A stretch of 57,154 bases of DNA, taken from positions 1-57,154 of the forward strand of contig JAFVOQ010000003.1 in NCBI GenBank assembly GCA_017505785.1, given 5' to 3'. The stretch's first letter is position 1. Each line of letters opens with the position of its first letter. Shown piece by piece: positions 2,663 to 18,425 of the stretch. The DNA comes from Clostridia bacterium (GTDB taxonomy: Bacteria > Bacillota > Clostridia > Oscillospirales > CAG-272). Below the pieces are notes generated by a model that was not told the origin of the DNA, made no database searches, and was given only the letters and a program-made list of their open reading frames with translations. Both the position numbers and the translations under genes were made by a program.

Positions 2663-3370
2663 TTATGATCCTTTCTTTGCTTGCTCTTTTTCAAGTCGCT
2701 CGCGTTCTGCTTGGGGCAGGCGGAGATAGGTGGGAGAGAGCTCCTTGTCGGTGGTACGTAGGCCGTCTTGATATAGGCGAAGTGCACATGCGGCAACGCC
2801 AAGGGCGTTTTGCTCGGCGGCAATGGATGCCACGGGTAGGGATTTTAATGACAGAAAGGCTGCAGTCGTTACCTCAACCCCGTCACCTACAAGATAAAAG
2901 GGCTCACCGCGTGCCACAAGCTCGGCTTCAAGATCGGTTGCGGCAAGCGCACGGTCGGCACAAAGGCGTGTGAGCTCATTGCCCTCGGCGCGGAACAGGG
3001 CATTGTAGACCTGACCTCGCCGCGCGTTCATCACGGCACAGATTATGCCGTTTGCAGGCAAAAGATTTCTTGCCATGGCTTCAAGTGCCGAAACGCCGAT
3101 CACGGTTTTGTTCTTGCCAAAGGCAAGCCCTTTTACGGTCGCAACGCCAATTCGTACTCCCGTAAAGGAGCCGGGCCCCTCACTGCACGCAAAAACATCC
3201 ACGTCGTCGGGGGTATAGCCCGTCACGTCAAAGAGTGCCTTTGCCATAGGCAAAAGCGTTTCACTGTGCGTGTTGCCGTTTTTGACGGTAAAGGAAGCAA
3301 GGGGGATATCGTCACGGCAAAGCGCAACACTTCCAACCACAGCAGTGCTGTCAAGTGCAAATATCAGCAT
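2663..3370 (-). CDS. tsaB: tRNA t6A37 threonylcarbamoyladenosine synthesis protein TsaB
   Basis: TsaB is the scaffold partner of TsaD and TsaE in transferring threonylcarbamoyl to A37 of ANN-decoding tRNAs. The 235-residue protein has the ASKHA-type start MLIFALDSTA and the family hallmark EGPGSFTGVRIG near 63-74. NARRGQVYNA at about 117-126 is also typical. As expected for TsaB it lacks the metal-binding histidines of TsaD. Its start overlaps the tsaE stop by seven bases, so the two partners are translationally coupled. tsaD is not in the window. Confidence 0.93.
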   Translation of the reverse strand: MLIFALDSTAVVGSVALCRDDIPLASFTVKNGNTHSETLLPMAKALFDVTGYTPDDVDVFACSEGPGSFTGVRIGVATVKGLAFGKNKTVIGVSALEAMARNLLPANGIICAVMNARRGQVYNALFRAEGNELTRLCADRALAATDLEAELVARGEPFYLVGDGVEVTTAAFLSLKSLPVASIAAEQNALGVAACALRLYQDGLRTTDKELSPTYLRLPQAERERLEKEQAKKGS

Positions 3371-3822
3371 GGGCTCTTCCTTTCTTCGATCGTGATGATG
3401 CGGCTATCGGGGGTGGTGGGATCGTCTTTTATAATTTCCACACGCAAATAGTGGGAGGGCAGGGCATAGGGGATGTTTTCGCTCCATTCCACCAATGCAA
3501 TGCCGTCGCGAGCAAGGTAATCGTCGTATCCAATGGAAAACAGATCGTCCTCATCCGTGATGCGGTACATGTCAAAGTGAAACAGGGGCTTGCTTTTGCC
3601 GCGATATTCGTTTACAAGTGCAAAGGTGGGGGAGCGCACAAGCGCGGTGGGGGCTGCTACCGAGGCAAAGCCCCGCACAAATGCGGTTTTCCCAACGCCA
3701 AGGTCGCCGTACAGTGCCACAAAGGACGGTAAGGTGTCCTTTTCAAGCATGGTAGCGGCAAGCTCTGCCCCCGCCGCCTCTGTTTGGGCGGCGGTGGTTG
3801 TGTGTAAGCGGAGTGACAGCAT
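3364..3822 (-). CDS. tsaE: tRNA t6A37 synthesis ATPase TsaE
   Basis: This is the small P-loop ATPase that drives turnover of the TsaBD complex. At 152 residues it has the usual length. Walker A is GDLGVGKT (39-46), followed by RSPTFALVNEY, then HFDMYR and the late VEWSEN motif, all characteristic of the YjeE/TsaE family. Its ATG overlaps the fhs stop by one base (TGATG), and its end overlaps tsaB. Confidence 0.95.
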   Translation of the reverse strand: MLSLRLHTTTAAQTEAAGAELAATMLEKDTLPSFVALYGDLGVGKTAFVRGFASVAAPTALVRSPTFALVNEYRGKSKPLFHFDMYRITDEDDLFSIGYDDYLARDGIALVEWSENIPYALPSHYLRVEIIKDDPTTPDSRIITIEERKSPC

Positions 3823-16917: not shown

Positions 16918-17688
16918 ATGCTTTTTGCGGTTGATATCGGAAATACCAACATTCATGTGGGCGCTTTTAAAAACGATCAATTAAAGGCTACTTTTTCACT
17001 TGGGCTTGATATGCGGCGCACCGCGGATGAATACGCGATGCTCTTGCGAGCACTCTGTGCTGATAAAGGCGTTTTGTTAGATGCTGTTACAGGTGCGGTT
17101 TTGGGGTCTGTGGTGCCCACCGTCACGCCGGTTTTTCTCCATGCGCTGAAAGCTCTTTTGGGTGTGCCTGTTACCGTGGTTGGCCCCGGTGTAAAAACCG
17201 GCTTTTCCATTCGGCTTGATAACCCTGCGGAGCTTGGAGCCGATCTCGCCGCCAATGCAGCCGGGGCAATTGCCTGTGTGGGTGCGCCTGTGATCATTGT
17301 TGATTTCGGTACGGCAACCACTGTCATTGCAGTTGATGAAAGATCAGCACTGCAGGGCGGCGCGATCATGCCGGGCGTAGGGATGTCGCTTCATGCGCTC
17401 GACGGCGCTGCGCTCCTGCCCGATGTCCCCGCATGTGGGGGAGTTGAGGCTCTTGGAAAAAACACACCCGACTGTATGCGCGCAGGTGTTGTGCGTGGCG
17501 GAGCCATGGCGGCTTGCGGGCTTGCAGAGCAGTATAAAAGAATATTGAAGCTACCTATGAGCACACCCTTGGTGGTGTGCGGCGGCTATGCCGAGGTAAT
17601 GCGTGCCTATTTGCCTGCAAATACGCAGTATATACCCGAGCTCACCCTGTGTGGGCTTGCGGCAATTTATAGGTTAAATCAAAAATAA
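16918..17688 (+). CDS. coaX: Type III pantothenate kinase
   Basis: It phosphorylates pantothenate, the committed step of CoA synthesis, and in this class resists CoA feedback. The 256-residue ASKHA protein has DIGNTN (6-11), the second phosphate motif DFGTATT (129-135), and GGAIMPGVGMS (147-157). GADLAANAAGA (107-117) occupies the usual GADR position, with Leu where Arg is common. GAAGGAG precedes the ATG. The next gene is an ECF substrate-binding component, which fits a vitamin uptake and phosphorylation pair. Confidence 0.94.
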   Translation: MLFAVDIGNTNIHVGAFKNDQLKATFSLGLDMRRTADEYAMLLRALCADKGVLLDAVTGAVLGSVVPTVTPVFLHALKALLGVPVTVVGPGVKTGFSIRLDNPAELGADLAANAAGAIACVGAPVIIVDFGTATTVIAVDERSALQGGAIMPGVGMSLHALDGAALLPDVPACGGVEALGKNTPDCMRAGVVRGGAMAACGLAEQYKRILKLPMSTPLVVCGGYAEVMRAYLPANTQYIPELTLCGLAAIYRLNQK

Positions 17689-17697
17689 TAACAGAAT

Positions 17698-17796
17698 AAT
17701 ACCGCGCTTCGTGCAAGGAAGATACCCACGGGATCTTACCCTGTCAAGGCGTTGTGTTATATAAATTTTCGCCGTATCCAAAAGGGAACGGCAGTA
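17698..17796 (+). promoter_or_regulatory. Possible structured leader before the ECF S component
   Basis: The 119 bases between coaX and the S component are non-coding and can fold. Features are a hairpin with arms AAGAT/ATCTT around ACCCACGGG (about 17720-17738), a second GGGATCTTACCC segment that could compete for pairing, and a stem GCCGTATCC/GGGAACGGC at 17772-17793 ending a few bases before the AAGGAG at the S-component start. S-component genes are often riboswitch-controlled, but I cannot match this to a class I know, so it stays a candidate. Confidence 0.35.
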
Positions 17797-17807
17797 AGGA
17801 GACTTGT

Positions 17808-18425
17808 ATGAGAACAAGTAAAAAAAGATTAAATGTTGTAGGAATGGTAGAGCTTGCGCTACTTACCGCGGCGGTGCTGATTTTGCAGCTCGCGGGCGTG
17901 GCAATCAAATTACCCTTTCTTGGCACACCCGTTAGCCTTGTCTTAGTTCCAATCGCACTCGGTGCGATGCTGCTTGGGCCCATGGCAGGCGCTTGGCTTG
18001 GCTTTGTGTTTGGCATGGTGGTATTTGTGGTGTGTGGCGTTATGGCAACCGATCCCTTTACGGCGATGCTGTTTGCGGATCACCCCGTGCTTACGGCACT
18101 GACTTGCCTTGTAAAATCTACACTTGCGGGCTTTTTGTCGGGCACGGTGTATCGCGCCGTGCGTCAAACAAAGCCCCTGCTGGCTACATTTTTGGCAGCA
18201 GGCATTGCGCCGGTTGTAAATACGGGCGTGTTTGTGCTCGGCTGTGTTACAATGATGGATACGGTATCCGGTATTGCACAGGGAATTGGACAAAGCTTTC
18301 TTTATTTCGTGATTATCGGTTGCGCGGGGTTAAACTTTATTTTTGAAATGATTCTTAATATGGCGCTCTCTCCTGCGCTTTGCCGTGTTGTGGGCATTAT
18401 CACAAAACAACAAAAAAGGCGTTAA
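17808..18425 (+). CDS. ECF transporter S component, possibly for pantothenate
   Basis: A 205-residue integral membrane protein with about six hydrophobic segments and the S-component pattern LGPMAGAWLGFVFGM in its first half. It binds the vitamin and docks on the EcfA1-EcfA2-EcfT energy module. Its position 119 bases after coaX suggests pantothenate (PanT-like), but other vitamins cannot be excluded from sequence alone. The ATG at 17808 is chosen for AAGGAG just upstream; an earlier in-frame start would cover the leader. The energy module genes lie about 12 kb downstream, as is usual for solitary S components. Confidence 0.82.
   Translation: MRTSKKRLNVVGMVELALLTAAVLILQLAGVAIKLPFLGTPVSLVLVPIALGAMLLGPMAGAWLGFVFGMVVFVVCGVMATDPFTAMLFADHPVLTALTCLVKSTLAGFLSGTVYRAVRQTKPLLATFLAAGIAPVVNTGVFVLGCVTMMDTVSGIAQGIGQSFLYFVIIGCAGLNFIFEMILNMALSPALCRVVGIITKQQKRR

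Follow-up and report, generated by a model that had tools for sequence, protein, structure and literature searches.

Riboswitches for vitamins (TPP, FMN, THF and others) occur before genes for the S components of ECF transporters. In the pantothenate pathway, the closest described leader is the pan motif (Rfam RF01749), a stem interrupted by two bulged A's that is usually arranged in tandem and is found upstream of panB, panC or aspartate decarboxylase operons. The accessible text of its 2010 description mentions no ligand and proposes a dimeric protein-binding site (Weinberg et al. 2010, PMC2864571), and that of another article places pan before panB-panC in Paenibacillus (PMC5670726). No CoA riboswitch is known according to the accessible portion of a 2022 review (PMC9971707), the words "riboswitch" and "leader" are absent from an article on CoA synthesis in B. 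subtilis (PMC11487621), and our full-text literature searches found no report of a pan-motif effector. On the transport side, the solved chains 4rfs_S and 6zg3_C are identified as PanT in the accessible parts of their reports (PMC11521937; PMC7755397).

We analysed a leader of 119 bases that lies between coaX and an ECF S component gene in a 57,154-nucleotide stretch of DNA from a Clostridia bacterium (contig JAFVOQ010000003.1), which as a whole we call the window. This leader is a variant of the pan RNA and no new class, and we consider it probable, at about 0.62, that its pan-type hairpins act in cis to regulate translation of a PanT-like pantothenate importer.

The window leader and its fit to the pan motif

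The segment from 17689 to 17815 folds at -37.5 kcal/mol, compared to a mean of -27.1 for its shuffles (z -3.14), and none of 200 dinucleotide shuffles was as good. Its two hairpins have a common geometry, in which a short outer stem is followed by a bulged A on the 3' side, 5 bp, a bulged A on the 5' side and an apical stem (Table 1). Thus, both window hairpins carry the two bulged A's that define pan, in the tandem arrangement usual for it; many relatives show one hairpin only. A preliminary description of this DNA had proposed a structured leader ahead of an ECF S component, which is borne out by the strength of the fold and by the stems that covary in relatives. It had also proposed competing hairpins, one of them ending just before the Shine-Dalgarno (SD) sequence; hairpin 2 does end there, one base short of it, but the two main stems coexist in one ensemble with pair probabilities near 1 (lower for the apical stems).

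Table 1. Features of the leader and its flanking genes, with positions in the window
Feature	Position	Strand	Basis or detail
coaX, type III pantothenate kinase, upstream neighbour	16918-17688	+	PF03309, E 2.7e-51
P0, helix enclosing pan hairpin 1	17696-17760 (17696-17709 with 17747-17760)	+	pair probabilities 0.84-1.0
Pan hairpin 1	17717-17740	+	RF01749 alignment, geometry detector, fold
Parts of pan hairpin 1			outer GG/CC; bulged A17738; 5 bp 17719-17723/17733-17737; bulged A17724; apical CC/GG
Pan hairpin 2	17770-17794	+	RF01749 alignment; model R1 match 17765-17803
Parts of pan hairpin 2			C17770-G17794; bulged A17793; 5 bp 17771-17775/17788-17792; bulged A17776; apical UCC/GGA
Shine-Dalgarno AAGGAG	17796-17801	+	sequence; one base past hairpin 2; unpaired probability 0.84-0.92
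Small hairpin, start codon within loop	17802-17819	+	pair probabilities 0.91-0.99
ECF transporter S component, PanT-like	17808-18425	+	PF12822; 4rfs_S

We found that the leader aligns to RF01749 end to end over the model (17716-17798; 35.1 bits, E 1.2e-4), 1.1 bits short of the gathering score of 36.2, and that Rfam at gathering thresholds yielded no match in the whole window. The orthologous leaders of two genomes in the same genus scored 36.3 bits, which passes the cut-off (G014), and 33.2 bits (G020), and the leader of a genome from another family of the same order, whose S gene is 37% identical, scored 29.8 bits (G068). Since the gathering score is a curator's cut-off and not a structural feature, we file the leader as a pan variant; the gene that follows it is a PanT-like S gene of the same pathway, not a panB, panC or aspartate decarboxylase operon. 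The preliminary description could not fit this leader to a known class, but it does belong to one, given the RF01749 alignment and the orthologue over the cut-off. Among the Rfam classes considered in 301 bases round the leader, up to E 5, only pan was credible, and the three remaining rows were small nucleolar or sRNA families far under their cut-offs. In relatives, RF01749 rows at E > 0.05 (L038-L052) were taken as chance from their sequences, with the exception of one before panB, in G067. We note that Infernal's stricter filters apply in searches over more than 40 genomes, and that the RF01749 search there missed the window itself.

We found no terminator-like site on the + strand of the window's leader. 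An alternative pairing can be drawn between the 3' strand of hairpin 1 (UCUUAC) and GUAAGG across the SD. This anti-SD pairing is possible in the window, but we do not rely on it because it is kept, by eye, in only about 6 of 13 tandem relatives. A start-codon hairpin of similar strength to that of the window is found in 7 of 13 tandem leaders (compared to 2.9% of shuffles) and in 9 of 33 other leaders (6.3% of shuffles), where the shuffles, like those used for terminator counts, preserve base composition only; relatives show changes on both strands of this hairpin. Leader and gene together gave no match when searched against plasmids.

The S protein of the window alone matches the PanT chain 4rfs_S at E 7e-8. 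A profile of 26 of the S proteins (A2) matches 4rfs_S at 1.2e-23 and 6zg3_C at 1.7e-19, and BioY, ThiT, RibU and FolT chains at 6.5e-4 or worse, so that by sequence the family is closest to PanT among the solved S components. In NCBIfam, the window S protein has no match at E <= 0.001, and the model most touched by the profile members was a folate-family S model (20 of 26, best 1e-9). By these comparisons the S component is PanT-like and likely a pantothenate importer, in keeping with the link to pantothenate or CoA that had been suggested earlier.

The hairpin in relatives and across genomes

Used as the query, the S component matched in 83 of 98 genomes, counting that of the window, and 77 of the 83 S loci had a usable S match (six were left out). 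With a detector for the pan geometry, which demands pairing and the bulged A's, 56 of the 77 leaders scored at least 8, compared to 109 of 770 shuffled leaders. The later selection used a lower threshold of 7.5 and a filter for CAG, TAG or CAA at the 3' bulge. Six loci were skipped by hand (L053, L057, L069, L077, L080 and L083), and three cores were placed manually, those of L028 and L093 as replacements and that of L030 as an addition. After this filtering and hand work, we took the SD-proximal hairpin as present in 50 of the 77 S loci. The hairpin is about 28 nt long, with few conserved unpaired bases. In the alignment of these 50 loci (A1), changes occur on both sides in 10 of 11 pairs, RNAalifold predicts the same 11 pairs, and the covariation score is 0.617, compared to a shuffled mean of 0.289 and to 0.203 or less in slid versions; these figures lean towards structure because the detector demands pairing. 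Both bulged A's are invariant in the 50 relatives, as the detector had required. A basal stem between the U-run and the SD was considered as a switch and rejected, with the first extra pair kept in 41 of 50 leaders and the four together 58.5% paired.

By eye, minimum free energy folds of 13 tandem leaders, which were chosen for the distal copy without the enclosing helix as a criterion, show an enclosing helix round the distal hairpin in every one of the 13 and the proximal hairpin in 12, with L028 as the exception. Of the 50 aligned leaders, 11 (L006, L007, L008, L009, L010, L014, L015, L016, L059, L064 and L086) also have a further small hairpin, often GGGGUAAAGUCCCC, that separates the pan hairpin from the SD. 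In L015 and L016, the SD that follows the pan hairpin belongs to a short open frame located ahead of the S gene, perhaps reflecting translational coupling.

A covariance model built from A1 (R1) was run on the 98 whole genomes and gave one match at E <= 4.4e-5 in each of 55 genomes, 48 within the training set and 7 outside. By eye against the coordinates of the S search, 54 of these 55 strong matches are directly upstream of the S gene, and the remaining one, in G060, is also before an ECF S gene, which BLAST had missed. In the window, which belongs to the training set, R1 scored 41.9 bits (E 1.4e-8). The model also detected a hairpin ahead of the S gene in two of the skipped loci, L053 (G026) and L080 (G094). 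It failed to recover the training loci G025 and G045, and the next row (G070, E 2.6e-4) is away from its S gene. In 398 phylum-wide genomes, R1 gave 6 with E < 1e-3, and its matches outside the order, in G730 and G598, are both before an ECF S gene (PF12822) with no coaX adjoining; rows of E 0.015 and weaker in this sample were taken as chance by eye.

We also searched GTDB genomes with an RNA-only DNA pattern, in which parts of both strands are fixed and most of the apical stem and the loop are free, and obtained at least 118 stretches, with 80 readable loci among the matches listed. Of these 80 listed loci, 78 are immediately followed by the start of an S gene of this family, the contigs of the two remaining loci ending 96 and 26 bases on, and 75 have coaX close by on the same strand. 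Again among the matches listed, 70 of 78 distinct hairpins have a canonical first free apical pair (shuffled mean 32.9, maximum 47) and 63 of 71 a canonical second one (shuffled mean 39.8, maximum 49), and the Y/R-fixed pair beside the 5' bulge is of Watson-Crick type in all 78 (41.5 when shuffled). Kinship inflates these comparisons, but the first free pair is variously GC, CG, UA and AU. Named carriers of the hairpin in this search were Faecalibacterium longum and Intestinimonas butyriciproducens. With a single-hairpin model, panT leaders can be found that go unreported by Rfam.

Classical pan RNA served as a yardstick. RF01749 is above its cut-off in 138 of the 398 genomes of the phylum sample, and we viewed 70 classical sites, 30 brought in as loci and 40 picked by choice. 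A DUF2520, PanB, PanC or PanD gene is downstream in 64 of the 70, and an intrinsic terminator follows 47 of the 70, compared to 6 of 700 shuffles. Thus, the same hairpins would serve two outputs, a terminator at classical sites and the SD, with no terminator-like site, in the window. Only two of the 98 genomes have panB (G071 and G067), and both combine a pan tandem before the synthesis genes with a single hairpin before the S gene.

Some of the remaining classical sites, and some first genes, bear on uptake. Pan RNA stands before BioY, then an S component, then coaX in L194 (G774) and L198 (G398), and before a biotin ligase, then an S component, in L166 (G467). It also precedes an OPT-family transporter (PF03169) in L192 (G583) and L195 (G763), and such transporters may be a so far unrecognised route by which pantothenate or a related compound is taken up. 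Sodium-bile-acid-symporter-family transporters have been linked to ketopantoate uptake; a gene of this family (PF01758), then panC, follows pan RNA in L188 (G462), with similar first genes, by eye, in L190 (G686) and L208 (G749). In L151 (G067), a further protein that by eye is S-component-like (3223-3771) comes after panB-panC in the same gene row. No downstream gene was recognised at the classical site L185.

Co-occurrence with coaX and the CoA pathway

Strong R1 matches were found in 55 of 62 genomes with coaX, compared to 0 of 36 without it (Fisher 4e-20, kinship ignored). Among genomes with any S match, R1 matches were found in 54 of 59 with coaX and 0 of 24 without; among those with strong S matches, in 41 of 43 and 0 of 20. 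Thus, S homologues persist in genomes that lack the hairpin. Independent contrasts on a tree of 80 S proteins gave 7-8 in agreement and 0 against (median p 0.008, and 0.016 when tested in the other direction), with labels from R1 matches only, such that G025 and G045, in which the detector saw hairpins, count as negative.

We examined the pathway in six coaX-lacking genomes with S homologues (G055, G047, G042, G035, G040 and G012). CoaBC was found in none of the six, compared to 14 of 14 controls that gave a signal; this count covers these six coaX-lacking genomes only. Likewise, none of the six has a type I kinase over the cut-off (G040 has a row under it), and all six have a partial match to a type II kinase (Fumble), over profile positions 150-297 at most. 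The lack of CoaX and CoaBC together with a type II-like kinase fits apparent pantetheine salvage, judged from gene content, and the S protein of these genomes may therefore import something else. Since the hairpin is absent from these genomes, we infer that its effector is probably on the pantothenate side (CoaX, pantothenate or phosphopantothenate) rather than CoA.

Across the phylum the association is looser. Classical pan over the cut-off occurs in 134 of 358 genomes with a coaX match, compared to 4 of 40 without (p 3e-4, hand count), where 20 of the 40 coaX-negative genomes (G598, G638, G651 and G721 included) are negative in the sense of absent among the matches listed. The four are G409, G487, G553 and G651, of which G487 and G553 are 97-99% complete, and G598 has a single-form hairpin without a coaX match. 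Thus, a strict dependence of pan on coaX across the phylum is unsupported; the association is significant but loose.

Proposed control of the importer and comparison with known systems

Taking the computed structure, covariation, panT link and coaX co-occurrence together, we infer the direction of control, a block at the SD and the kind of effector as follows. The leader most likely acts on translation as an OFF switch for pantothenate uptake; its effector would be a protein, for which CoaX is a possible candidate, or a metabolite from early in the pathway. With the pathway satisfied, the effector would recognise the 5-bp helix between the two bulged A's, and a dimeric RNA-binding protein seems a more likely candidate for this than a free small molecule. 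Bound effector would lock hairpin 2 against the SD, such that no ribosome could start; when supply is short, the SD site would be free and uptake would rise. The block would have to come from this putative bound effector, since the SD is mostly unpaired in the predicted fold and, of its possible pairs with the U-run, only the first is well conserved. A second copy, on the enclosing helix, makes up the tandem form in this leader, many relatives showing only the SD-proximal copy.

We considered which effector, if any, the hairpins might serve. CoaX is a dimer. One tentative candidate, to which we give a low probability, is CoaX itself as an RNA-binding sensor that binds pan hairpins and represses uptake, or elsewhere synthesis, of its own substrate. 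The R1 counts in coaX genomes and in genomes with strong S matches, the tree contrasts, and the adjoining coaX in 75 of 80 GTDB loci among the matches listed all point in this direction, and tandem hairpins suit a dimer, as the accessible text of the pan description has it (PMC2864571). Against it are the genomes with classical pan or the single hairpin and no coaX match, and shared loss of the whole pathway would yield the same pattern. We offer equally tentatively the broader proposal that the pan hairpin reads out the pantothenate-to-phosphopantothenate step via CoaX, such that one hairpin of about 28 nt represses translation of the importer, tandems control transcription of synthesis operons, and the element is missing in apparent pantetheine-salvage lineages. 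A true riboswitch, in which a hairpin or pair of hairpins binds pantothenate, 4'-phosphopantothenate or a CoA derivative directly, seems to us somewhat more doubtful: the gene context is that of one pathway, and an element not found without CoaX, in six such genomes also without CoaBC, fits an early intermediate as ligand, but about 28 nt with few conserved unpaired bases offer little for a selective pocket, the 2010 paper, in its accessible text, favours a protein (PMC2864571), and the accessible portion of the 2022 review names no CoA or pantothenate class (PMC9971707).

Two further explanations do without a pan effector. The hairpins might form a constitutive structure for mRNA stability, coaX-panT processing or SD spacing, with no sensing, as their position between two genes that are probably read together and the open SD of the predicted fold would allow. 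We think this unlikely, because the bulged A's and the 5-bp spacing are common to the pan leaders of terminator-ended operons and the element is absent where coaX is absent. Least probable, by a long way, is the earlier reading of a new riboswitch class unrelated to pan. It could draw on the lack of an Rfam match at gathering in the window and on an Rfam search of 20 loci with the hairpin, which matched no relevant family (only a chance microRNA row, E 0.25), but the full-length alignment with both pan hairpins, the orthologue over the cut-off and the shared pathway all argue against it.

In the literature searched, mostly open papers without supplements, we found no report of pan before panT, such that priority is uncertain; within that scope, the new points are the association with a pantothenate importer, the form with one hairpin at the SD and the co-occurrence with CoaX. 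Because it involves just one hairpin and one importer gene, this form is easier to test than the tandem attenuators of synthesis operons, and the pattern of presence and absence with CoaX (the six tested coaX-lacking genomes being also without CoaBC) narrows the candidates to CoaX or an early intermediate. The occurrence of the panT-leader form in many gut bacteria offers a concrete way to learn what the orphan pan RNA senses.

The leader resembles vitamin riboswitches in its placement ahead of an S-component gene and near the SD, and differs from them in that the window matches no such class up to E 5. The S proteins resemble ECF-PanT of lactobacilli (PDB 4RFS, 6ZG3), both of which their profile matches, and pantothenate is their putative substrate from homology and the neighbouring coaX; the accessible text on the lactobacillal transporters mentions no such RNA (PMC11521937; PMC7755397). 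With the pan motif, the leader shares the stem with two bulged A's, one per strand and 5 bp apart, and the pantothenate pathway. It differs from that motif in the importer gene downstream, in place of panB, panC or panD, in the enclosing helix that carries hairpin 1, in relatives that often have a single hairpin, and in an output that appears to lie at the SD and not at a terminator.
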